Source: a virus. From it: 37,657 bases of DNA. Where the stretch lies: IMG/VR virus record IMGVR_UViG_3300025122_000060, positions 1 to 37,657 of that record. One strand, 5' to 3'. Below are positions 1,002-28,965 of this stretch, piece after piece. The position numbers and the translations under genes are program-made. The first letter of the stretch is position 1, and the number at the start of each line of letters is the position of its first letter. The notes under the pieces were generated by a model. It made no database searches and had not been told where the DNA came from. It saw only the letters and a program-made list of their open reading frames with translations.

Positions 1002-1919
1002 TTAGTTTCTGTGGGCTGCTGTTGATTTTATTTGCACACCAACTCCAGATTTACTTCTTTTAAACAAGTATCTTTCTAAATATTGATTTGCAGTCATACC
1101 TATATAATCTTTCAAAGGTTCGCCTGGATCAGCTGTTCTCATCTCAGTAAAAGCTTCCTTAAAGTAAGCAAATAACGCTTTTTGATATTTGTTTGCAAGT
1201 TCTGAATCCATTCCTTGGAGCAAAGCTTCGTAATTATCATCTATATCATAATAATTGGCAATACCTGTTCTTTGATCGTCTGGAACTTGCTGGTCTGACA
1301 TGTTTATCAAAAATTTGGCTAGTTGGCCACTTTTGGAAGCAACGAGTCCAAAAAGCTGATTGACTGCTTCTTCCCCTAACTTTCCTGCTGCTACACCAGC
1401 GGCACCCCCAACTGCGAGTCCGCCAAAACCGCCAGTGGCGAGCCCTGCCGCTGTCCCCACACCAACACCAGCTCCAAGACCAACAATCCATTTGGCTGCT
1501 TTGCCAAATATTTTTTGCACAGATTTAGGATTTTGTTTTTGCCAAGTAGATAAAAAATCCGCAACTGTAGGATCAGAAGATTCTTCGTTTAAATTTTCTT
1601 TCAAAAAAGATTTTTTTTTAGAGATTTTTATAACAACTTCATTTTTTTTTAATCGAGATTTTTCTTTTCTTCCGCGATTTTTTGAGACTGGTTCGCACTG
1701 TAACTCATCATCTTCCACTCCATCAACATGATGAAGCTCTTGGCCATCGGGACATTCGCCTTGTTCTTTGTCGTGTTTTCTTTTGTCACGCTTCCTTTTG
1801 TTGCGTTCTTCTTGTTCTTTTGAACCAGGAGGATTATATTCTTTAGAATAATCACGAGGTGTTTTGGAATTTTTATTCCACTCACGCTCTGAAAGGATTT
1901 TTTTAATCTTGATCTTCAT
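1002..1919 (-). CDS. HNH-like motif plus glycine-zipper protein
   Basis: A 305-aa product with three visible parts. (1) A short basic N-terminus, MKIKIKKILSERE. (2) A very basic region (36-95) ending in an HNH-like element: Cys56, ELHHVDG at 61-67, then EPVSKNRGR at 76-84. This matches the pattern of small phage HNH-type proteins (basic Arg/Lys run, G-x-E-x-H-H-x-D-G, then N-R), although the last metal ligand of a canonical HNH is unclear. (3) A long hydrophobic Gly/Ala repeat (about 145-180) of glycine-zipper type, able to insert in membranes, followed by a helical C-terminal domain with YYDIDDNYEALLQGMD at 223-238. The start overlaps the upstream gene by 17 nt. Two A9 runs (minus strand) lie at 1612-1620 and 1642-1650. 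Whether it cuts DNA is unknown. Confidence 0.75.
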   Translation of the reverse strand: MKIKIKKILSEREWNKNSKTPRDYSKEYNPPGSKEQEERNKRKRDKRKHDKEQGECPDGQELHHVDGVEDDELQCEPVSKNRGRKEKSRLKKNEVVIKISKKKSFLKENLNEESSDPTVADFLSTWQKQNPKSVQKIFGKAAKWIVGLGAGVGVGTAAGLATGGFGGLAVGGAAGVAAGKLGEEAVNQLFGLVASKSGQLAKFLINMSDQQVPDDQRTGIANYYDIDDNYEALLQGMDSELANKYQKALFAYFKEAFTEMRTADPGEPLKDYIGMTANQYLERYLFKRSKSGVGVQIKSTAAHRN

Positions 1920-2925: not shown

Positions 2926-5900
2926 CTACGCAACAACATTCGCATATCCATCCTTCTTTTCAATACTAATAATGGAATCGGCAGTATCTTTAAGGTTGTC
3001 CAAATGCGAAATAAGCATTACAGTTTTAAACACAGAAGTTGTAATATCTAGAATCCTTACAAAACCTTCCATACGTTCTTCATCTAAAGCTGTTCCTGGT
3101 TCATCCAGAACAAATATCTGAGATTTGGGTAATGAAGAAATGTTTGTAAAGGCTAAACGAATTGCCATCGCTGCGACTGTTTTCTCTGCTCCGCTTGCCA
3201 TTTCTAATGGACTTGCATCCCGATCAGGCTGTTGAATGTAAATATCAAGTCTGCTATCATCTGTTTCAAAATAAACTTGAAAATCAACAATGTTTGCAAG
3301 GATCTTTGAAATCTCACTGTTAATTGTGGGCAAACTTTTTTTAATAATATCATAAGCGATTCCATTTGAATGCATACACCTTCCATATAAATCATATGCT
3401 TCATAATCATTATTATAGTTTTTAAGATCTCTTTTCTTTTCTTCTAAACTTTCAATTTGTTGCTCAAGATAACCATGAGACTTATAAAGTTCAAGAAGGA
3501 AATCTTCACACCCTTTTAGCCGTTCTTTTGATCTTTGAAGAACAACTTCTTTTTCATTCCTTTGTTTTATAACTCCACCGAGATCTTCAATGACCTCTTT
3601 ATTTTCTTCATACAACTCTTCTTTTCGAGCAAAATCTTTTAACTCGTGTTTGATAATTGATTTGCGAGAATTTAAGTTTTCAATAAACAAATCATCAGCT
3701 GAAATATTGTTTTCAAGAGTTTTTGTCATTTCGACAAGCTCGTCAAACTTTTGAACTTGTTGATTAATCTTGTTTGGGTTGATTTCTTTAATGTTTGTTT
3801 TAATGCCAGTTAAAACTTCTTTGTTATTTTGAATCGAAAGTTCAACAATATCAATTTGATCTTTGGCCTCATAAGCTCCACAAATAAATTTGCAATGGGA
3901 GAACTCCGAGCCACACGGAACTTCATTAAGGAGAGAAACTTGTTTATTCTTGTTTTCTAAATCCTTTTCTTCCTGCAATATTTCTTCTAAAATCTTTTCT
4001 AAATCAACAGATAGGTTTTCATATGCAACCTTTTCAGTTCTCATCATTTCAATATCAAAGTTTTTTGCAAACTCTTTTGCTTTACGAACTTTGCGTTTAT
4101 TCTTTTTATTTTGTCTTTTCTTGTCTGTGATTTCTGTGCTAACAGCTAATAAGTTTTGTTCGCTCTTAGAAATAGATTCTCGCAACGATTTAACATCAAT
4201 AATTTCTGTTGGCGCTGAACTAATTCTAGATAACAGTTCAGTAATTTCTTTTTGGGTTAATATAATATCGCCACGAAGTGCTTCACATTCTGATTTTCTA
4301 TTATGTGTTAGACTTTCATTTTCAAAAAGTTCATCTTTAAACTTTTTTAACTCTTTATCGTGGTCTGTGTTTTCCAAAAGCTTAATTGCTGCTTTCGTTT
4401 CTGCTGCATCATCTTTGGCATTTTTAAACTTTTTATCAAAAAGCTCAAGGTCGAGAAACTTTGCAAGAATTTCTTTGCGCTTTGTCGAACCTTCATTAAT
4501 AAATGCTAATGACCCAAGCTGTGAAGACATCGAAGTCAAAAGAAAATCTTCAATCGTGCCAAAATATTTAACAATATTTTTATCTGTGTCTGCTCTTGTT
4601 AACCCATTTAATGATTTAGTTTCTCCAGTTATAATATCAACATATTCAAAATCTACCGTTGTTTTTGCTTCAACAGTTTCATTGCCCTTTAATCTCTTAA
4701 GATATTTTTCCATTCGTCTTCGGATTGTATAAATTTTGGTTCCACGCTTGATCTTAACCATTCCAGAGCCCTCAGTCTTATCGTTGTTGATAATATTGAG
4801 ATTCTTGCGAGAATTCTTTGAAATTGAGTTATAGATTGTGAACAATAACGAGTCAACAATACTTGACTTGCCTGAGAAGTTCTTTCCAAAAATCCCTATA
4901 ATGCCAGCAAAATTTGTGAAGTCAATGCGATTACCATTTCCATAGTTGAATAGATTATTCCACTCAAGCTCAAGGATTTCAAAGTCTGTATTACGATATG
5001 TCTCATCTGATTCCTCAACAATTTGTTTATATTTTCTATTGAGTTCCATAATCCGTTTTTCTAAATCTTTATTAATCTTATAGTCTTCAAGATATTCGCG
5101 AATTAATTTTTCCTGAACTGCAATATCTCTTAAGTTTTCTTTTTGAAATCCGTCTTCAAGATCAACATTATTTGTAAATGTTGCTTTATTGATTATTGAA
5201 ATTGATTCTGGTTTAAACTTCTTTTTCGCAACATCAACTGCCTTTTTAAGAGCTGTTACAGATAAACTATTTTCAACGATTAAACGAACACGAGCACCAT
5301 CAGGTAGAACAAGTTTTGGGATTTTTCCTTTTTCCGTTAAAGCAACAGAAATAAATGGCTTAGGGTTCGCAACTGAGATATGCTTAACTTTAAAGTTTTC
5401 TTTATCCTGAATATGCCAAAGCAAAAATCCCTTATCAAGAGTTTCACCAAAGTTTTGTTGAACTGTAGAACCAGCATAACGATAGCGACCTTCAAGATCC
5501 AGAGTTTGATTTGATTTGTGAATATCTCCAAGCATTGCATAATCAAATTTATTGAAAATATCTATTTCGTTCTCACCAACATCCATAACCCAATCGCTGT
5601 CGGTCATGCAACCGCTGATTGATCCATGATAAAGAGCAATGTTTATTTTATCTTCATTTGTTGGATCCATCCAGTTATCCTCATCAAACACACTCAAAAC
5701 ATTAAGGGCAAAATTATCATCAAGATGAACTTCGCCAGAGTTCTTTAATAGGTGAAGATTTGGATGGTTCAATGTATTTGCAATAGGCGATAAAGAATCT
5801 TGACGATTTGGATTTCTTAAGTTTCCATCGTGATTTCCAAGAATAATATAAGTCGGCGCTATGCTGGCCAGATTCTTAAAAAAATCTGAACACATTTGAA

Positions 5901-6069
5901 CAAACTCTGGCGAGATTTGTGTCTTTGTATGGCAAATATCGCCACAATGAATAATATAATCTACTCTTTCTTTTCTGAGAGTTTCATAGATTTTATTAAA
6001 AACTGTTCGATATTCTGTGTGGTATTTTAAATTGCGAATGTGGGTGTCCGCAATGTGGGCAAACTTCAT
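2926..6069 (-). CDS. sbcCD: Mre11/SbcD nuclease - Rad50/SbcC ATPase as a single chain
   Basis: A 1047-aa protein. Residues 1-340 are a calcineurin-like Mre11/SbcD nuclease: DTH at 8-10, CGD at 42-44, GNHD at 78-81, YHG at 147-149 and GDIH at 181-184 supply the two-metal ligands. From about 363 a Rad50/SbcC ATPase begins: Walker A GKNFSGKS at 395-402, long coiled coils (about 550-715 and 735-930), a Cys-containing hook (Cys719, Cys726, Cys730; PCGSEFSHCKFIC), signature MASGAEK at 957-963, Walker B FVLDEP, D-loop LDEE and H-loop His1022. T4 encodes these as two proteins, gp47 and gp46, for DNA-end resection in recombination-dependent replication; here one frame without a break encodes both. The gene has no Shine-Dalgarno and its ATG lies 8 nt after a TGCTATAAT box. 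Confidence 0.95.
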   Translation of the reverse strand: MKFAHIADTHIRNLKYHTEYRTVFNKIYETLRKERVDYIIHCGDICHTKTQISPEFVQMCSDFFKNLASIAPTYIILGNHDGNLRNPNRQDSLSPIANTLNHPNLHLLKNSGEVHLDDNFALNVLSVFDEDNWMDPTNEDKINIALYHGSISGCMTDSDWVMDVGENEIDIFNKFDYAMLGDIHKSNQTLDLEGRYRYAGSTVQQNFGETLDKGFLLWHIQDKENFKVKHISVANPKPFISVALTEKGKIPKLVLPDGARVRLIVENSLSVTALKKAVDVAKKKFKPESISIINKATFTNNVDLEDGFQKENLRDIAVQEKLIREYLEDYKINKDLEKRIMELNRKYKQIVEESDETYRNTDFEILELEWNNLFNYGNGNRIDFTNFAGIIGIFGKNFSGKSSIVDSLLFTIYNSISKNSRKNLNIINNDKTEGSGMVKIKRGTKIYTIRRRMEKYLKRLKGNETVEAKTTVDFEYVDIITGETKSLNGLTRADTDKNIVKYFGTIEDFLLTSMSSQLGSLAFINEGSTKRKEILAKFLDLELFDKKFKNAKDDAAETKAAIKLLENTDHDKELKKFKDELFENESLTHNRKSECEALRGDIILTQKEITELLSRISSAPTEIIDVKSLRESISKSEQNLLAVSTEITDKKRQNKKNKRKVRKAKEFAKNFDIEMMRTEKVAYENLSVDLEKILEEILQEEKDLENKNKQVSLLNEVPCGSEFSHCKFICGAYEAKDQIDIVELSIQNNKEVLTGIKTNIKEINPNKINQQVQKFDELVEMTKTLENNISADDLFIENLNSRKSIIKHELKDFARKEELYEENKEVIEDLGGVIKQRNEKEVVLQRSKERLKGCEDFLLELYKSHGYLEQQIESLEEKKRDLKNYNNDYEAYDLYGRCMHSNGIAYDIIKKSLPTINSEISKILANIVDFQVYFETDDSRLDIYIQQPDRDASPLEMASGAEKTVAAMAIRLAFTNISSLPKSQIFVLDEPGTALDEERMEGFVRILDITTSVFKTVMLISHLDNLKDTADSIISIEKKDGYANVVA

Positions 6070-11345: not shown

Positions 11346-14300
11346 TCAACATATTTCCCCACCTGAACGTTTAATGTGCTCTGTTTTAAAATAAACATTA
11401 AAATCCATTTTTCTTCCTGTCTTTTTTGATGTCAATCTTATTTTAAATTTTTTGGGCTGTGCATCACCTGACCAAATTCCTTCATTTTGAGAAGTAAGTC
11501 CTAAAACGGGGGGATCTGATGAAAGACTAACAGTCGCCAAAGACGGTATTCGATTTCCTGTGGCTTGATCAATAAAACCACTTTCTACTTCGTTTAAAGC
11601 TGCTTGAGCAAACGTTGGTTTAATTTGAATAAACTTTTTGCATGATTTTGTTGGTGTTCGTGGATCTGGCGGTATTGGGGCTGGGAATGTTTCAATGTCC
11701 AACCACACTGTTCCATGATCATCGTGCATAGTAACTTCATATACAACTGTTGGGTTTGATATATTATTATGAACATCAACAGCTCTAAAAGTGTACCAAT
11801 ATTTTTTATTTGGTACAACATCATCGGTGAATGATGCTGATGATGCTTCTTTACAAGGGTTTGAAAAAAAGCTAGAACTATCAACTCTTTTATGAAAATT
11901 AAAATCTCTCCATGTAGTCGGTTTTGTATCGGTTCTCCATATTTCAAAGATTGTTACTGGGTCATCGCTTTTAAACTCAATTGGTGTAGCTCCACCCGAT
12001 GGTAATTTTTGATTTAACAAATATTTATCACGTAACTCATCATCAGTATTTGATAACGAAATAAATGGTGCTTTATAGTTACCAACATTTCCGTTAAAAA
12101 ACATAAGAATCTTATTGCTTATACCTCTATATGGGATTAAGTTAACATCTGGTGCAACCGGAGGTTTATCAATAACAACAGTATTGAAAGTAAACTGTGG
12201 GACTTCAAATAAAACAAGAGATGGTTCTGTAAAAACACAGATTTCCGCTTCATTCCAATTTAAGGCCGATGAAGGATCATTAGAAGTTATTTCTGGTGTC
12301 ATATTCCCAAGGTATGCTTCGGTAAACGTATTTGCATTAAATGTTCTATTAATAAATGTAATCCAATCGGATGCCAAAAAAGATCCATGCTGCATCGTGA
12401 AAATACTATCGGGTAACGATAAAGTGCCAAGGCCGCTATTCATCGCTCGAAGCTGTGCTTCAGTAAGAGGTTCAGTAGGAATTATACCACCTGACACGCC
12501 CGCGTCGTTCCATCCAAAATTGCCTTGGGGAGCGAGAGGATCGCTACCAGGCTGATCAGTTCCAGTACCAAAAACTAACTCACTAACGCTTACACCACCA
12601 GCTGCGGCGAGTTCTTCTAGTGTTAAAGGCGTGAATACGGTTTCTTGGCCAGGTGCAGGCCCAGTTCCAGGAGCAGCTATATCAAAAATGCGTGTTCTTG
12701 TTGTGTTGGGTTCTGCACACAATGGCATATTATTTATTTTATAGCGATATTTTGAACCAATAACAAGCTGATATGCAAAAACAGTATAAGAATATTCAAC
12801 ACCATAAATAACTTGTGTATCTATGTATTTTAATACATCAATTTCGCTTGAATTGGGTAGCCAAATATTTTGAAGAAATCGGCCATTCTTAGTTCTTTTC
12901 TCGATTCTGTAGAATAAAGTTTCTGAGTATGCTTGTTTGCCATCATATATTTCTTTGTATGTTCTTGCCAAAGGAGAACTAGCAGAATCTGGCCCTAAAA
13001 CTTTCTTTGCCATCCACTCTCTTAGAGCTTCTAAATCAGACGCCAAACTACTTGCAGAACACATATTATTTGCGGTATTAAGAATCTCTTCTAGTTCAGA
13101 AAGTGTTGGGCTAAATAACCACATCCAATCTTCGTCACCAGTAGAAGAAAGCAAAGTAGGAAGATCTATTAATGCTGCGGCGGCGGTGGTCATAAGGAAC
13201 TGACCAATATTCCAATATCTATAATAACCATCAGTCATGCCCCATAGAGTAGGATCAACTGCCGAGACTCTATCCATTTTCATCCAACGATTCCAGGGTC
13301 TTTCTCCATAAATTGGACCAGCAGCTTCCACTTCACTCGTTTTGGTCTTTCCTAGTTCAAATGGCCTGCCATGGCTATATCTTTCCACATAAATTTCTTT
13401 ATTTTCCATCACCTCACGTATTAATGATGCGCCCATTCGAGTTTTTCTAAAAGCATCTGCAAATTGAGTATTGTTGTCTGTATTGAAATCAATTTCAACA
13501 TACATTGGAAACATTCGTCGTTTTTCATTATGATCAAGCAAATATGCAATACTTGTCATTGGAACAACTAAATTATCAAACTGATTAAGAAATGGAAAAA
13601 TATTAAATAAGTTATCCCTCCAGGACGGACTTGTATCTGCACCAAAACCTGGTGCGGTATCTCCGAGTGTTTGACCGGCACCAAATGATTGTCCTGTAAC
13701 TTCAGAAGGATTTACAATAACAGGTGCCGGACGCAATCCAAGATCTCTTAAAACTTTTGCCCATTCTTCATGATATGAAAGTTTATCTAGTTCCCCTGTT
13801 TTTTCACCCTTAGAATTTACAACATCTATTAAAGTATCCTTTATTTTACCACCTAAAGTAATATGTTGGTAATAAACTCCAGATCCAGGAAAGGCATGAA
13901 GCAAACCAGCAACTATGGCTCCGGGATCTCTCATCATTTTATCTATCTCTGTCAGAAAAACATAAAGGTTTGGCAAAATTTCTTCAGGCAATGAAGATAA
14001 TATTCTTTCATAATCACGAATATAAAAGTTGTAGTTTGCATTATAATCAAAATATAATGAACTAAGTTCGTTTTTTTCTGCTACTGTTCCCAATAACTGT
14101 GGTTGTTCAATGTCAAAAGCATAATCAGAATAAATTACTTCTTCTAGTGGTGAGACATTTCCTGGGTCAACTAGCGTTTCGGGTGGTGTATGCACTCTTG
14201 GAGGAACAACGGAATGTTTCGGAAAAGAAATGTTGAGTCCCTCGATATCGATGGCCACTTTTCCTTCCGCCACGAGGTTTTTCGCGATTTTTGAACCGAG

Positions 14301-19905: not shown

Positions 19906-22900
19906 CTACGAACATTCCCCGCTAGTATTATCACTATCACGCCTTTCTTTAAATTCATTTTCAGTTTCAAGTTGTGCCAATTCAATCAAACTAAAGAAAT
20001 CATACGGCCAGTTATAACTATAATCAGGAGTTTTTCCTTCATTATTTTTAAAATTAAATTTAAACCTATCGTCATCTGATGAATCAGCAGTCATCTTAAA
20101 GTAATTAATCTCTGCCTTTCTTTTTATCTTAAAAACCATCCATTTAACGTCTTTTGGTATTCTTTTGCCACCAAAAAACTCCCATGGAGCCATTTCGTGT
20201 TTTACTTCAGCTGAATCTTTTTCAGCGGTCAAAGAAATCTTTGGCATAACTCCTTGCCAAATATCAGCAAGATCTTGTTTATCAAGAGTATGTTCAACGT
20301 CTAAAATATACATAATGAAAGGTTCTATATCTTCATACAAATCATAATTCATATTTGGCGGAACAACATATTTATCTAACTTAGTTACTAAATCAGAAAT
20401 CGATGTTTGTGTAACTGTTCCAGAGGGTTGGAACTCAAGTCCAGCTAATGGCTCATTACCATTCAAAACGTTTTGTTTTGTTGTTTCATATATTCGTCTT
20501 GAATCATGCTTATCTTGCCCAGCCAATGTAAAGAAATATCTATCATAAATTGGCTCCTCTATGCTCTTAGCATAAGAACTATCAGGGTTTGTGATTGGAT
20601 ATTCTAAATATGGTATTGCAACAAGAGCTTCAGATATTACTTTTCTGTCTGCAATTTCACCAACTTTTTGTTCCATTTGTTTAGATTTAAATCCACACGT
20701 TTGAACCAAAGAACCTGTATATCCTGTAGTTCCTTGACTATTTCCTGTTGGTAATGCTGGATATGTTTCTTCAAGTCCCATAAATAAACCTTGGCTTCCA
20801 GTGCAAAAATCGCCATATCCGGTCCACATCCCTCTAGGCATTTCATAAGAACCAGCTGTTATACAACTCCATTTATCTTTTGCAAAATTTAAAATAGGGG
20901 TTTCAAACTTAGGACTTATTACCCAAGCATCAAAAGAAGAATCTGAAGGATCTTTGGCGGAAACCGGAATATAACTTTTTTCTGATGTTGAATTTAAATT
21001 ATATTCAATTTGTTTTAATCTAGTTTTTCCTAGTAAGTTCAAAGAAGATGACACCATCATTGCTGTTTGAAATGCTGGTTTTGTTCTATTGTCTACAATA
21101 GTTCCGGCAGCAGTAATCTTTCTATTAAAAACATTTTCTAGTTCTGGATTGGAATAAGAAAGCGTTGCTTTAGATAATATTTTATTTAATGTTCCTGCGC
21201 CACCTTCAGTTCCATCTGCCACATATTTAACAGTTGCAATACTCTTTCCGTAAAAATAAGGTGGAGTATATGGAGCAGTGGTTGGATCTTGTGATACTCT
21301 ATATTTACCTTCTGAATCTCCGACCCAAAAACTTGAAGTATATAATACGTTTGGACCATACCATCTTCCTCTCCACTCAAGAGGTTGTGTATTATTGCGA
21401 CCACCCGGATCACTACCTGCCTCCATCGCAGTTCCGGCACCAAGAGCCCCATAACCCTCAAACATAACAGTTCGATTTGCACCGCTATTGGGCATTCTTA
21501 AAAACACATCCATGGTGTATAAGTTTCCAGATATAAATGTTGAAAATTCATTTTCGGGTTTTGAAGTGATCGTCGTAAAAGATTTATTTTTGAGGAAAAA
21601 GTTAGGAACCTCGGCAAAAAAGTTATTTGTTGCCATTTCAAATGTTGGTCTGATTTGACCATCCCAATCAAAAAATGGAAGTCGGCCATAGTTTCCAGTA
21701 GATCCGCCGACACCTTCAGCACCGACCTCACAAGTAATTAAAGCAATCTTAGATTCTCCATTTGATGAAGAAACTGGAATATGATCTTTGAACGCAAAAA
21801 GAGATTCAAATGGAATTCTATAGTTAGAACCCGACGCCAATGAACTGCCATAAAATATTCCGGTATCTCCAGCGTCAACAGATGATGAAATCACAGCAGT
21901 TAATGAACCAGTATAAACAGGCCAATCGACTGCGATGCCTGATTTTATAGTATTATAAACTATTCCAGGAGCAAAAAATGGTTGCATTAACGATTGAATG
22001 GCCAATGCGCCAGAAAGTTCAACACCATCAGTAGAGCCATTATTGGTTTTTATATCTCCGTTTGCCCAGTTAACACCACCAATATGATCCCCAACTGATT
22101 TTGATAAAATAGATCCAAGCTGCATACATCGAAGCATTGGATAAAATCCACTATAAGGTAATAGTTTTTTAACTACATTACACTTTAATGTAACTTTATT
22201 AAGAGCTGCGTCTGTTTCAAATTTTCCAAAATATTTTTGAAAATCAGTATTAGAATAATCTTTAAAGAAGTTTTCGTTTAATGGCCATTCTGATTCGCTA
22301 GTGCCTGCTGTTTGAGTTGCACTTGAAGTTATAGAAGCCCCATCAAGAGATAAAAATTTATTGTTGGATTCTCTAAAATCTCCACCATGATCATTTATAT
22401 AATAATCAATATTTTTTGAAATTCTAAACTCTGGTATGACCGTGTAGTTCTTTGCTATTGAACGAATATCTTGTGCATAATCTTCATAAGAATCAAACCA
22501 CGGATTCTTTTTGGCCAATAGATTTGTATGCCATTGGGGAGCATTCTCAGCGATTGGCGCTGACACATGAGGCCAGTGATACATTTGTGATGCTGTGGGA
22601 TATGTTGCATTACCATATATTAAAGCCGTATTTGATACGTCCGATGATGTAAAAAACATTGGTCCATGAATAGCTGATTTTGCCGAGTTCCATGGTGTTC
22701 GAACAAGTTCTCCTGAACGAGAAGAAACAATAGTAGCAACACAAAATTGATTTTGTTTCATTGTCTCAATAGGCCACACATTCGCTGCACCTACATCTGC
22801 GTACCCAAGAGAATTTAATGGCATTGGAGCGCCTGAGCTAGTTGATCGAATACGATCACTTAAGTTATCTCTCCAAAAAGTTCTTCGATTTAATACAGTT

Positions 22901-25900
22901 CGATCATAACCATTAACTCCAACTCCATCAACTTCTGCATAAGAAGTTCTTCCGCGCTGCTCTGCAATACCTGTATTGACATCACGAGGATAAACAACTT
23001 CTTTATAAGAAAACTTCTTAAGAATTGCCCTTGGAGCATCTACAAAAGATTTGTCGTATAACTGTCTTATTCTAGAATAGTTTTGATTATTGGCATCTTC
23101 TTTTTCATTAATCCCTAAAATATTATTAATTTGAGGATTAGCAAATGCTACAAGATTATTCCCAAAAGAGTGTCGAAGTGTAACACATTTTCCTAAAGAG
23201 TTAACATGTTCAATTGTTGTGTTCAGCGGCTTATATTTAAAAGTAACTGGTGGTTCAACCAAACTTGCAGTTACCACATGCTTATTAATAGAAAAATTAG
23301 TTCTTGACTTAAACGGTTGTAAAAACTTGACCACCGTCCCGGCGTCTTTTGTTCCGTCCCTACTTTGAACTACCGGGACTTTTCGAGAAAATAATTGTCC
23401 ATTTGCATAAAGACTTATAATATTATTGTTTTTTTGATATCTTGCAATAGGATTCTCTCCAACTCTAAGTTGTTTCCAAGAAGGGTATCCCCAAACACCA
23501 TTTCTATGAGTTATTATTCCATTAAAAACGTCAGCTTTTCCAGTATCGGCTTCCGAAGTACCTTCTACTATATTTGAATTCAAATAGGCAAGAATATTAT
23601 TTGTAGAAGGAAATCCAAGAAAACGTGTTGATGAAGTTAATGGTTCAAATATATTAATATTAAGACCAACAAAATCATTTGGAATAAAGTTACTAAGACC
23701 AGAGTTTCCTTGGACTGATGCTGAATAGTGTCCATAGTTCTGTATGCATTCAGCACCATATGCCGATCCAATAACGCTTTCTGATATAAACGATGGCATC
23801 GATGCTGTTCTGGAAGTTGATCCTGAAGGAATCGAGAAGTTTGAAACGTATTCAAATGTATCTGTAAAAGAGCCCGAAATAGACGCAGTTATCCAAGAAT
23901 ATTGATTTGCACTTCGTGGAATCGGACGATGAATATACCAGTTATCGTAATCAATACTTCGACTTAAAGTGCCTTCATAATCATTGTCGTAATATGCGCT
24001 TAATGCACCAACTATTTTTGAGTTTCTATTAATCTTATGATACGCCGCAATTGTATTATAGTTGTTCGCATTTGTAGCGTGATCTGCTGGAACAGTTCCA
24101 TCACCAGCTGCGCCGGTTGGATCAATACCAAACTGTCCAGCATTTTCTTTATACCAACCATGTAATGCATTTCTTACAATCAAGTTTCTATAATTTAATG
24201 TATTATAAACAGAATATTCTCCTGCATAAATGTCCATCACTCCGCGAGCCATTGTTTCTGGTCCGCCAGGAGCACTAAATCTTTGAACAATAATTGATTT
24301 TCCTGATCCTGTTAAATCATTTCTAGGAATAGCAAAGTCAACAATTCCAGAAACAAATGTTGAGGATGCGGTTGCTGGCGTGAAACCTTCATTCCTAACA
24401 AAAAATCTATTATTCTCTGATCGCCCAGCAGTTTGCAATATTTCATAATCATTTTGATAGTTTCCAACAACTGCCGATGAAGTTCCCCATTTGATATTAC
24501 GAATATTTAATGGACGTTTTGCATATTCATCTCTATAATATATTGCATTTGGATAACGTTGATTGCTGGCAAAAAGACCACCATTAGTAAACTGCACAAG
24601 ATATCCTGATCCACCAAAAGACATATATACAGATTCTGCTCTTGTTTTTATTGTATCATTGGAAGCTGTATTAATATTGGCATGACGGACTTGTCTTCCT
24701 CCAACATGCCTCTCGGTAAATGGACCCTGCATTGGAACTTCACCGATACCATAAGAATCATCATGATAGTTTGTGATTCTAGCATATTTAACGAAATTAA
24801 CAAATGGTTTTGGTGGAGATCCACTTATAAAACCTTGCAAAACATTATCTTTAAATTCATCAACGGAAGCACTATAAAGACTAAATCTTGCAAGCGAAGC
24901 ACCTTTTGATTTATCGTCAAAAGCATCAGAGGCAGCAGTATCTCTCAATGCAAAATCAATACGAGATTTTGCATTTGGTTTTTTTATATCATAACAAACA
25001 GTTTTAAATTGTATTCCACCAGAGTTAGGTATTTGAATTTTACGTCCACCACTCCATGGCCTTCTCAATTCGTTTTCTATATAATCTAGCTTCTTTTGAC
25101 TCTCAAAGTTAGAGCCTCCACGGATTGCCCTAGGATATTGTGATTTTATTAAAACAGGCGCATTCCAATATCTTCTATTATAAGCACTTAATGTTGAAGA
25201 ATGAATAAGTTGTCTATCTGCATCAACAGCGGCATCGCCCGAAGAAATATAATCTTTTCGATCTGCTAAATATTTCCACCACCAACAGTTTGTATTTTGT
25301 GATGGAGGCGAGAATGGCAATGCTGGCAGTGAAGCGCCCACACCCAAGTCCACTGCACCAGCCGACTTTGCGACTGTTTCAAGCTCATAGTTTCTCATTT
25401 CAAGTGTAGGATATTTGGTCCAATACTTATTTCTTTCCAAAACATGACTTTCGACCAATGTTCTTAACTTTTTAGAAAAATCTGCGGAAGCCGGGAATAA
25501 CTGAGTCACCATTTTAGAAATAGAATCATCTGCCCATCTATAATAATCTACAAACTTTTCAAAATCGATTGTATCATTCTTAATCCTGGAAAAATAAAGC
25601 TCTCGAAGTTTTTCAAGTTGTTTGTATTCCATTCGATAACGATTGACAGGCTCCCCAATCAAATTATTAAAATCTCGAATGGTTGCGAAAACTTTAATAA
25701 TTTCATCAGAAAGAATCGCATAAGGGCTTTTCTCAGCAGCAAAGTAATGTGATATTGGTCGCGTTTCTCTAGTGAAAAGAACGTCATCGTTCGAATCAAC
25801 AAGCTCAATCATATTATGACTGTTTAAAACATCTGGAGGAACTTGGCGGGCGACATTAACAAACTCACGACTTATAGAACCTGTATCAGATGCTGGAAAA

Positions 25901-28900
25901 TGATAACCTTTACCTGTATTTTTAATATCTGCAATAGGTGAAAGCCATCCATAAGAAAGGGCATAAGAACTTGAACTTTCTGCGGCAGATCCCGAAGAAA
26001 CATCATCAACAGAAAATTGACCAGCAGCATCAGATCCGGTTGTGGTTTCAAAATCCCAATGAAGTGCAAGAGTTTCCATTTCTGGAATTTGTTTTACCGA
26101 ATTTGCAAAATCTGGAACAACATGGGGATCAAGCGTAAAGCTTCCTGATTCTGTGATATATGCATTTTTATAAGGATTTTTTGTTCCAAAACTAGAAGGA
26201 TCTCGTGCATGTACTCTTAGTGTTTCATTATCAAGATAGTTCATCCAACAACGCAAAGAAGAAATCTTAGCGTCGGAATATTCTCTAAGAGCACCAGTAA
26301 AATCAGTTCGATGTGCTCCAACAAAAAATCTCTTTGAACCAGTCAAGAAATGATAGCCGTATGAAGCAGCTGTAGTCGAACTTGGTCGCGCAGTACCACT
26401 TGAAAATGTACCAGTAACTGTAAATTCATTTTGGATTGTATCTGATATTGCATTATATCCCGAGAATATAACTTCGTAGTTTGATCCGCTGGCGCTGCCT
26501 GTTACTATTCCACTTCCACTAACTGTATTAGCATAAGGCCAAGTGATTGGCTTTATTCGAACACTCAAGTTCCATCGACTATTATCATAAACATCATTAA
26601 ACAAGCTGCTTGTTAGTGTTGGAATGACACACGGAGCTGTTCCTGTAAGTTGAAAATGAGCCGAAGTTGAACCAGTTTTTGGTGTAATTGCCTGAACTTG
26701 AAAGTTTGCTACATCAGATCCCGCCCACGTAAAACTATCGGCATCACCAAAACCAACCTCATGAGCACCAAAAATAGAAGCTGTTAAGAAATCTTTAAAA
26801 TAATAGTTTCTTGAAGTTCTTCCAACAGGTTTGGGAAATATTGCTTCTACCTGATAGGTGTTGCCCCTATATCTCATTTCAGTTGAAGATGATAAATAAG
26901 AACGAGCATTGCGAGCATCTTCACTAGCAGTTTGTTGACAAACTGTTGCTCCTATTCTATTTTTTGCATTAAAATCCGCATATCTTTTTCTAATGATAGA
27001 AGATTCAAAGTTGTTTCTTATTAAATGTGTAGTATTGTTGCCATAAAGGTTTAATTTAACCAACCTTTCATCAATCCCATAACATCGAAGCATATTTCTA
27101 AAAGATTTTTCTGTTCCTTTAGATTTAAGAATAACGGGAAGATTATTATAGACATTTTGATATATTCTATTTTTAATTTCATCTAACTTTGTATTGAAGT
27201 TTCTAAGATCATCACGACTACCCAAGCTTTCCAATAAGGATGCATCAGCGAAAAGTTCTTCCATTTTAACACCCATGGATTCAACCAATCTATTTGTAAA
27301 TGGGTAAGGTTTAAAACTGCCACTAGTATATGCATTGTCTTTTATTCTCGGCAAAGAATCTATTTGTAGTTGCAACGTATCAAAATAACTACCAATAATC
27401 TGACACAGCTTAAGAAGAACTTCTCTATTGTTTTCTAAATCATCTTCACGAATCCAACCGGGAAGTGTGTGAAAAATAGAAGAGTTGTTATTAAAATCAT
27501 AATACTCTCCTTCATCCTTTTTTGTTTCTAAAGTTCCTGAAACTATTGGATGATCTGAATATAAAATCGGATCTTTGAACTCTGCCAAAGACGCACTACT
27601 TTCAACTATTGCAGATCCAGTTGAGCGAGATCCAACAGCATATCCTGTCCATACTCCATTTGAAACTCTACCAGAATAATCTAAAACTGTTTCATCAAGA
27701 GTATCTGTGCTGGAGGTGTTATAAATGCCTTCATTAAATTTATAATAAACTCCCAAGTCTACAGGATTACCGGGGCTATATTTTGCCGAACCTGTTCCTT
27801 CTCTGGAAAAATCGGTGTTAGTTCCACCGCCAACCTGTGTAAACCAATATTTACCAATCTCAGTTCCTGTTCTTGCTTTTTTCCAAAACCTAAGTTCATC
27901 AATCGAAGAAGTAAGAGAGCCACTAAATTGATCGGCTTGAGTTCCTAGTGTACCGCCTCCCGAAACTGGCGCAACAAGGGAACCAATTTGTCCGATCATT
28001 GCTCCGGTTAAAGCTCGAACAGTAGAGCCAGAAGTAACTGTGGTTTCTAAAGTTCCATTACGATAAAGTTTGCACTCCATTGCACTTCCAGTATTTTGAA
28101 GACTGATTGCATAGTGATTCCAACCACCCATAAGTGATGTGCTAGAGCTTACGCCAATCCCTGTTTCATTTAAAAATGCTCCAGATAAACGAGCTTTCGA
28201 AAACCCATCAGTTCCAGAAAGAAGTGTAACATTAAAAAATTGAAACAAAGAATCAGTTGGACCACCGCCAGATAATTCAACTCGGAATCGTCCATAATCA
28301 TCATTTCCCCAAGATGAACTGTTCCAAACATCAAAAATTACCTGTTTTCTTGATTGTGCTTCTATATCGAATGAAGATCTAGACATCCAAAACTCAAGAG
28401 TAATACCATAATTGCCACTAATCTCAAGATTAGATTCTTGTCGTGTACTTGCTTTATAAACATTTGCACCCGTAAAATTTAATGCTAATGTTCCTGTACC
28501 ATTATAGTTTGGCGAACGATGTGGTCCACCTTTAAAAAATATGCCTTCCTTAGTTGTAGAAGCATCATGATTAATATATCCTTTGTCATCAACTTGGGAC
28601 GCCGCACCAGCAGTTTTGCCTAGTTTTACATAACCTGTTGTTCGAGGATAAAGATTGTCAAATACATATTTATCTAAATAAGTTCCACTTAGTTCCCATT
28701 CAATCTTTTCTTTGAGAGAACCATCGTATGGATATTCACTATAAATATATCTATAAGAGTCTTCGTAATATTGTTTTGCTGAACCGTATCTGCAAAAGTT
28801 AGAAGCTGTAAGAAAATCTACATGAGGTACAAATCTTCTTTGATTTTCAAGTTGTTTTGCAACATAATCAGCTGATTCAACTTCTCTACCAACAGAATTA

Positions 28901-28965
28901 AGAGTGGCAGACGCAACAATCTTAGATGAAAAAGAATCTTTAAAATAATCTTTACTACTTGGCAT
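19906..28965 (-). CDS. 3019-aa tail/baseplate protein with two LamG-like domains
   Basis: One uninterrupted frame of 3019 codons. Residues about 165-385 form a LamG/concanavalin-A-like domain (YGITLEFWMSRS, WNHYAISLQ, SIDELRFWKKARTGTEIG). A helical part at about 500-640 (ENNREVLLKLCQIIGSYFD, LPVILKSKGTEKSFRNMLRC) resembles the phage tail protein I pattern of a KGT-x4-hydrophobic helix. A second LamG-like part ends near 925 (RFFVGAHRTDFTGALREYSD, SSLRCWMNYLDNETLRVH). Another helical part follows (about 1085-1200), then a very long Ser/Gly/Tyr-rich beta region. The C-terminus has VEHTLDKQDLADIWQGVMP and PDYSYNWPYDFFSL, shared, as I recall, by large proteins of uncultured phages. It should carry wedge-like and carbohydrate-binding functions in one chain. 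There is no clear Shine-Dalgarno in the 16-nt gap before its ATG. Confidence 0.85.
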   Translation of the reverse strand: MPSSKDYFKDSFSSKIVASATLNSVGREVESADYVAKQLENQRRFVPHVDFLTASNFCRYGSAKQYYEDSYRYIYSEYPYDGSLKEKIEWELSGTYLDKYVFDNLYPRTTGYVKLGKTAGAASQVDDKGYINHDASTTKEGIFFKGGPHRSPNYNGTGTLALNFTGANVYKASTRQESNLEISGNYGITLEFWMSRSSFDIEAQSRKQVIFDVWNSSSWGNDDYGRFRVELSGGGPTDSLFQFFNVTLLSGTDGFSKARLSGAFLNETGIGVSSSTSLMGGWNHYAISLQNTGSAMECKLYRNGTLETTVTSGSTVRALTGAMIGQIGSLVAPVSGGGTLGTQADQFSGSLTSSIDELRFWKKARTGTEIGKYWFTQVGGGTNTDFSREGTGSAKYSPGNPVDLGVYYKFNEGIYNTSSTDTLDETVLDYSGRVSNGVWTGYAVGSRSTGSAIVESSASLAEFKDPILYSDHPIVSGTLETKKDEGEYYDFNNNSSIFHTLPGWIREDDLENNREVLLKLCQIIGSYFDTLQLQIDSLPRIKDNAYTSGSFKPYPFTNRLVESMGVKMEELFADASLLESLGSRDDLRNFNTKLDEIKNRIYQNVYNNLPVILKSKGTEKSFRNMLRCYGIDERLVKLNLYGNNTTHLIRNNFESSIIRKRYADFNAKNRIGATVCQQTASEDARNARSYLSSSTEMRYRGNTYQVEAIFPKPVGRTSRNYYFKDFLTASIFGAHEVGFGDADSFTWAGSDVANFQVQAITPKTGSTSAHFQLTGTAPCVIPTLTSSLFNDVYDNSRWNLSVRIKPITWPYANTVSGSGIVTGSASGSNYEVIFSGYNAISDTIQNEFTVTGTFSSGTARPSSTTAASYGYHFLTGSKRFFVGAHRTDFTGALREYSDAKISSLRCWMNYLDNETLRVHARDPSSFGTKNPYKNAYITESGSFTLDPHVVPDFANSVKQIPEMETLALHWDFETTTGSDAAGQFSVDDVSSGSAAESSSSYALSYGWLSPIADIKNTGKGYHFPASDTGSISREFVNVARQVPPDVLNSHNMIELVDSNDDVLFTRETRPISHYFAAEKSPYAILSDEIIKVFATIRDFNNLIGEPVNRYRMEYKQLEKLRELYFSRIKNDTIDFEKFVDYYRWADDSISKMVTQLFPASADFSKKLRTLVESHVLERNKYWTKYPTLEMRNYELETVAKSAGAVDLGVGASLPALPFSPPSQNTNCWWWKYLADRKDYISSGDAAVDADRQLIHSSTLSAYNRRYWNAPVLIKSQYPRAIRGGSNFESQKKLDYIENELRRPWSGGRKIQIPNSGGIQFKTVCYDIKKPNAKSRIDFALRDTAASDAFDDKSKGASLARFSLYSASVDEFKDNVLQGFISGSPPKPFVNFVKYARITNYHDDSYGIGEVPMQGPFTERHVGGRQVRHANINTASNDTIKTRAESVYMSFGGSGYLVQFTNGGLFASNQRYPNAIYYRDEYAKRPLNIRNIKWGTSSAVVGNYQNDYEILQTAGRSENNRFFVRNEGFTPATASSTFVSGIVDFAIPRNDLTGSGKSIIVQRFSAPGGPETMARGVMDIYAGEYSVYNTLNYRNLIVRNALHGWYKENAGQFGIDPTGAAGDGTVPADHATNANNYNTIAAYHKINRNSKIVGALSAYYDNDYEGTLSRSIDYDNWYIHRPIPRSANQYSWITASISGSFTDTFEYVSNFSIPSGSTSRTASMPSFISESVIGSAYGAECIQNYGHYSASVQGNSGLSNFIPNDFVGLNINIFEPLTSSTRFLGFPSTNNILAYLNSNIVEGTSEADTGKADVFNGIITHRNGVWGYPSWKQLRVGENPIARYQKNNNIISLYANGQLFSRKVPVVQSRDGTKDAGTVVKFLQPFKSRTNFSINKHVVTASLVEPPVTFKYKPLNTTIEHVNSLGKCVTLRHSFGNNLVAFANPQINNILGINEKEDANNQNYSRIRQLYDKSFVDAPRAILKKFSYKEVVYPRDVNTGIAEQRGRTSYAEVDGVGVNGYDRTVLNRRTFWRDNLSDRIRSTSSGAPMPLNSLGYADVGAANVWPIETMKQNQFCVATIVSSRSGELVRTPWNSAKSAIHGPMFFTSSDVSNTALIYGNATYPTASQMYHWPHVSAPIAENAPQWHTNLLAKKNPWFDSYEDYAQDIRSIAKNYTVIPEFRISKNIDYYINDHGGDFRESNNKFLSLDGASITSSATQTAGTSESEWPLNENFFKDYSNTDFQKYFGKFETDAALNKVTLKCNVVKKLLPYSGFYPMLRCMQLGSILSKSVGDHIGGVNWANGDIKTNNGSTDGVELSGALAIQSLMQPFFAPGIVYNTIKSGIAVDWPVYTGSLTAVISSSVDAGDTGIFYGSSLASGSNYRIPFESLFAFKDHIPVSSSNGESKIALITCEVGAEGVGGSTGNYGRLPFFDWDGQIRPTFEMATNNFFAEVPNFFLKNKSFTTITSKPENEFSTFISGNLYTMDVFLRMPNSGANRTVMFEGYGALGAGTAMEAGSDPGGRNNTQPLEWRGRWYGPNVLYTSSFWVGDSEGKYRVSQDPTTAPYTPPYFYGKSIATVKYVADGTEGGAGTLNKILSKATLSYSNPELENVFNRKITAAGTIVDNRTKPAFQTAMMVSSSLNLLGKTRLKQIEYNLNSTSEKSYIPVSAKDPSDSSFDAWVISPKFETPILNFAKDKWSCITAGSYEMPRGMWTGYGDFCTGSQGLFMGLEETYPALPTGNSQGTTGYTGSLVQTCGFKSKQMEQKVGEIADRKVISEALVAIPYLEYPITNPDSSYAKSIEEPIYDRYFFTLAGQDKHDSRRIYETTKQNVLNGNEPLAGLEFQPSGTVTQTSISDLVTKLDKYVVPPNMNYDLYEDIEPFIMYILDVEHTLDKQDLADIWQGVMPKISLTAEKDSAEVKHEMAPWEFFGGKRIPKDVKWMVFKIKRKAEINYFKMTADSSDDDRFKFNFKNNEGKTPDYSYNWPYDFFSLIELAQLETENEFKERRDSDNTSGECS

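Follow-up and report, generated by a model that had tools for sequence, protein, structure and literature searches.

A tagged, modular protein of a T4-related marine myovirus as a probable head-internal cargo polyprotein

The window, which is the whole stretch of DNA analysed here (37,657 nucleotides), is a 37.7 kb virus fragment on which a T4-related myovirus encodes baseplate and further structural proteins; it lacks protease and capsid genes. The gene under study is open on the minus strand (1002-1919) and encodes 305 amino acids. The protein starts with MKIKIKKILSEREWNK and continues in a very basic, K/R/E-rich stretch, in which ELHHVDG and SKNRGRKEKSRLKK, with the residues SKNRGR, are present; C-terminal to it comes IKISKKKSFLKENLNEESS, after which a Gly/Ala zipper leads over to a helical tail. 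With the help of its relatives the protein can be divided into an N-terminal tag (MKIKIKKILSE, residues 1-11, positions 1887-1919), a basic HNH_3-derived module (residues 12-100, 1620-1886), an internal tag-like linker (IKISKKKSFLKENLNE, residues 97-112, 1584-1631) and a zipper plus helical C-terminal domain (residues 113-305, 1005-1583), all on the minus strand.

The neighbouring genes between 179 and 2890 are encoded on the same strand. The conserved downstream neighbour (612-998) is an Rz-like inner-membrane spanin, as indicated by phrog_312 (E 1e-5) and synteny, and a protein with a signal peptide and a C-terminal hydrophobic segment (179-646) lies, judged by synteny, in the position of a putative second spanin. 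On the other side, upstream of the module gene, lies the gene of a second tagged protein (MKLTKSRLQHIIKEEF..., 1903-2499); this partner is conserved and in L257 is even fused to the module, and together with its homologues (L154:57-455, L159:2651-2989) it shows an ICTDSRKEGGATLDWG-type tail. It is followed by a small conserved membrane protein, a putative holin (2475-2666), and by a second small membrane protein (2663-2890) which belongs to the same cassette. At 2926-6069 the counterparts of T4 gp47 and gp46, SbcD and SbcC, are apparently fused in one ORF of 1047 amino acids, which is also the case in L002-L022. Around the relatives of this fused gene and around the close relatives of the target the gene order is the same: SbcCD is followed by small membrane proteins, the tagged gene, the target and the Rz-like spanin; next comes a second spanin-like protein, and terminase and portal are encoded at a greater distance.

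The order holin-like gene, tagged gene, target, Rz-like gene and second spanin-like gene could be read as that of a lysis cassette, with the target as a lysis protein whose zipper domain would enter the membrane when infection ends. We regard this as very improbable, because zipper-less versions hold the same place in L140, L158 and L159. Moreover, in T4 (NC_000866, 65416-66997) ipII and ipIII are found beside the lysozyme gene e, and the tagged genes described here likewise lie in a lysis cassette; such a location therefore implies no lysis function.

The complete target, searched directly against viral contigs, phages and Pfam, gave no relative, and none was found in bacterial genomes or by scans for a hand-made C-terminal motif and for C-terminal relatives. 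A first weak C-terminal match (L024) was dropped, as the homology was unconvincing on inspection. A scan with the tag pattern MK[LIMF]TKxxLxxIIKEE yielded at least 120 loci, and a second pattern recovered the close clade of the target. The tag scan included L132, which opened the route to a widespread module family, and L140, in which the HNH module forms a stand-alone protein of 109 amino acids (E 6e-48); a hydrophobic protein with a tag is encoded separately behind it. The module stands alone in the close relatives L140, L158, L159 and L262, and is fused to unrelated C-terminal partners in L153, L154, L248, L259 and others. The tagged proteins at L140:4930-5463, at L153:1343-1813 and in the minus-strand module ORF of L248 contain hydrophobic hairpins, which we take to resemble the pre-toxin regions of polymorphic toxins; for the two proteins scanned no Pfam match supported this likeness.

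An earlier note on this DNA had called the motif in the basic region HNH-like. This is correct in the sense of a distant homology, since the family member L169 lies above the Pfam HNH_3 cut-off (5.9e-9) and keeps the full motif; the target itself stays below the cut-off, with no match to HNH_3 (PF13392), and so does L158 (0.044). Among 42 module homologues only H64 and N81 (1677-1679) are fully invariant. In 21 of them the position of the first His (63; H63-H64 are encoded at 1728-1733) is occupied by H, in 17 by S, in three by A and in one by T; D66/G67 are often absent, and nearly all of the sequences are without the central Asn block. The target keeps H63, H64 and N81, but it lacks the central Asn block and with it the complete HNH catalytic set of metal ligand, general-base His, central Asn and last His/Asn. 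A free variation of HHxDG, which the earlier note had named as the observation that would speak against its reading, is found in part: the first His varies and D66/G67 are often absent, but H64, like N81, is invariant.

In an alignment of L169 with I-HmuI (1u3e), which is weak (E 3.4), the matched residues of I-HmuI include D74-H75 and N87. From the spacing in L169, N81 presumably matches the metal-ligand Asn96 of I-HmuI. In comparison to Pfam HNH_3 and I-HmuI, His64 of the module would correspond to the catalytic His and Asn81, by spacing, to the metal-ligand Asn; the module differs from both in the deleted central Asn block and in the H/S/A/T at the first metal-ligand position. An AF2 model based on the module alignment places strands at 60-64 and 73-77 and a helix at 78-81, at low confidence (pLDDT 60), and Foldseek gave no match below 0.001 with this model; a single-sequence model was likewise of low confidence (pLDDT 43). 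We conclude that the module is HNH-derived, probably binds DNA and is most likely no ordinary nuclease. Nuclease activity is doubtful, because over the 42 homologues the first His is variable and D66/G67 are often absent, although the target, which keeps H63, H64 and N81, might still cut.

Homologous modules are also represented by phrog_6437 and phrog_4590, which include the small protein next to the terminase in P-SSP7 and related cyanopodoviruses. These proteins differ in being bare, with about 80 amino acids and no tag, and no gp21-like protease was found with them. In podoviruses the bare module gene stands beside the terminase and a true HNH gene; in cyanopodoviruses it lies between the small terminase and the true HNH gene and close to the large terminase, and in L169 the module is encoded directly upstream of the large terminase. 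These positions would suit an accessory of DNA packaging that cooperates with the terminase, so that the target would be a packaging factor and not injected cargo. For the target such a role is improbable, since in the clade of the window the module carries a tag, lies within the lysis cassette and occurs in fusions with further cargo-like domains.

The Gly/Ala zipper at about residues 137-186 contains nine GxxxG pairs, compared to 3.8 +/- 1.5 in shuffled sequences (p = 0.001), which goes beyond what composition explains. Its hydrophobicity is moderate: the best 19-residue Kyte-Doolittle mean is 1.46, compared to the 1.6 usual for a confident transmembrane helix. A match to a tail tape measure protein (phrog_167, 0.0024) was rejected, because the reversed sequence still matches (0.021) and shuffled ones do not, so that this match reflects Gly periodicity; a match to phi29 gp9 (0.0094) covers the same zipper region. 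Homologues of the zipper domain are found in L249 and in L257 (E = 5.6e-11), where it closes a 510-residue ORF in which the domain of the neighbouring gene and the module are present too. A profile built from the window, L257 and L249 retrieved L100 (E 3.8e-4), and with L100 added also L097, L107, L002-L004 and L018, all of which are stand-alone proteins with an ENW-type tag. The zipper domain would most likely act at or in a membrane, during or after ejection.

The earlier note had joined these parts in a single effector with a DNA-binding or DNA-cutting head and a membrane-inserting body, which we take as an undivided protein whose HNH head cuts DNA and is anchored by that body. Its single elements fared well: the zipper is real, the helical C-terminal domain is conserved, although in few relatives only (L257, L249 and the wider tagged family reached by a small profile), and the tag-like N-terminus is real as well and recurs in the same kind on the neighbouring gene. 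An undescribed protein with an HNH-related head, a zipper body and a tag, possibly with a role during DNA ejection, is probably what we have before us. The union of head and body in a single molecule, however, found no support. Zipper-less and HNH-less relatives, for which the note had proposed to search, both exist; the halves are exchangeable parts and a tag-like linker with [LI]xE separates them. In addition the central Asn block is missing and the first His is lost in half of the family. Although H63, H64 and N81 are kept in the target and the zipper enrichment is significant, we therefore consider the undivided effector highly unlikely, and an active nuclease with a membrane anchor is disfavoured by residue loss and domain swapping.

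T4 internal proteins carry N-terminal targeting propeptides of 10-19 residues, which gp21 removes at L/I-x-E (PMC9026906). T4 IPII and IPIII start with MKTYQEFIAEA. The target starts with MKIKIKKILSE followed by REW, that is, with a short N-terminal stretch ending in L/I-x-E, and we predict it to be a capsid-targeting propeptide cut by the prohead protease after E11. In the close clade [LI]xE is found just before a conserved W[NS]K segment in 14 out of 15 other distinct N-termini having that segment, while the rest of the tag diverges. The exception is L257, with MDE before W[NS]K and the module at an internal position; L260 and L261 start directly at the module and have no tag. A second tag class (MKLIMENWRxFLxE or MKxxxENW-type), which resembles the start of T4 IPII and IPIII, was collected without regard to the [LI]xE motif and shows it at residues 7-24 in 19 of 20 cases, compared to 42% of other MK ORFs. 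Because the pattern used to find the first tag class already contains IKE, only the second class and the clade of the target are independent tests. The tag was absent from all four cultured phages checked. No published report of these tags was found in the literature searched, by which their absence from the literature is not proven.

A protease of the gp21 family (PF03420) is encoded on 18 out of 18 long contigs, which were drawn from the set with fused modules, from the close relatives and, in nine cases, from the tag scan, and which include those of L153, L158 and L159; these counts depend on which contigs were long enough. Among the close relatives it is present in contigs G021, G030 and G031, and among contigs with fused modules in four out of six. 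In contrast, it was found in none of the 14 phages with only the bare module, some of which are fragments, and no protease was found with two N-extended modules on fragments (L197, L199). In L239 and L240 tagged genes flank the protease gene between the portal and major capsid genes, a place corresponding to that of gp68 and gp22 in T4.

The motif [LI]xE is also found at the junctions of the module. Upstream of it, [LIVM]xE occurs in 17 of 19 non-redundant extended ORFs, compared to 6.9 after shuffling and 5.3 in other segments of these proteins (p < 0.001), and the strict [LI]xE in 10 of 19, compared to 3.7 by shuffling (p 0.0004). Within 40 amino acids or less after the module the strict motif is present in 11 out of 12 non-redundant extended relatives, compared to 1.7 elsewhere (p < 0.001). 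The excess over shuffling (7.6, p = 0.017) is modest because the linkers are Glu-rich, and [LI]xE is a short motif that is common in Glu-rich proteins. In several relatives the internal tag is almost perfect, for example VIRITEEHVRQIIQEETEEVLQE in L265, and clear copies are also found in L253, L263 and L248; in the target this second tag is degenerate (IKISKKKSFLKENLNE followed by E), and a second cut is predicted there between LNE and E. One ORF (L079:42-1523) is tagged at its N-terminus and twice more internally, both internal tags being located in a repeated RSFMQKAGSFMTGKGFNEDITKEDIQK segment. In long ORFs at L132:1793-3685 and in L184, L192 and L201 the domains are separated by repeats of ESVNE or EGKLTE, and these ORFs look like processed core polyproteins.

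The tag might also be a docking signal to portal, scaffold or tail that is never cut, with the protein whole in the virion. The tags are predicted to be helical and the residues before [LI]xE are conserved too, as docking would have it. Nevertheless this is an unlikely explanation, since [LI]xE persists in tags that otherwise diverge and recurs at internal junctions, and since tag-bearing contigs encode the gp21-like protease.

We return to cleavage and propose, as a reading which we hold to be likely, that this T4-related marine myovirus carries the target inside its head as a cargo polyprotein, which its tag directs there, which the prohead protease cuts and which leaves the head together with the DNA at ejection. 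The N-terminal tag would bring the target into the prohead core, like the capsid-targeting sequences of the T4 internal proteins, and the gp21-like protease would cut it twice, behind LSE at residue 11 and behind LNE at residue 112. The cut cargo would then be ejected with the genome; the module would most likely bind DNA and the zipper part act at or in a membrane. T4 IPI, IPII, IPIII and Alt share with the proteins described here the short MK... N-terminus ending in [LI]xE, here a predicted propeptide, and the occurrence of similar tags on unrelated cargo; like T4, the phages of the tagged relatives encode a gp21-family protease, and tagged genes adjoin its gene. The present system differs in having more tags and several ORFs with at least two cargo units and internal tags, as polyproteins, and its targeting and cutting are predicted from sequence. 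In giant phages such as SPN3US and phiKZ a gp21-like protease processes head-internal ejection proteins, with cuts after Glu (PMC9026906). A head-internal position and cleavage after Glu are predicted here as well, although the motif in phiKZ is S/A-x-E and thereby different from the tags.

Whether T4-related marine phages possess in general a portable delivery system, in which tag families load unrelated proteins and polyprotein cargo is separated at internal tags by the prohead protease, seems to us an evenly balanced question. If they do, the injected proteome could be read from sequence. Little is known of what environmental phages inject in addition to DNA, and a head-cargo tag linked to a protease of known cut motif would allow predictions from metagenomic sequence that are testable by mass spectrometry. 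An HNH_3-derived domain, with two catalytic residues kept and others lost, would in this system have been recruited as a mobile cargo module.

Two further ORFs should be mentioned. The baseplate region of the window contains a structural ORF of 3019 amino acids (19906-28965). An ORF of 539 residues on the plus strand of L017, from position 13191 onward, contains MopE-like repeats of the CDGKDDDCD type; such repeats occur in Myxococcota and related bacteria, which is possibly a hint to the host.
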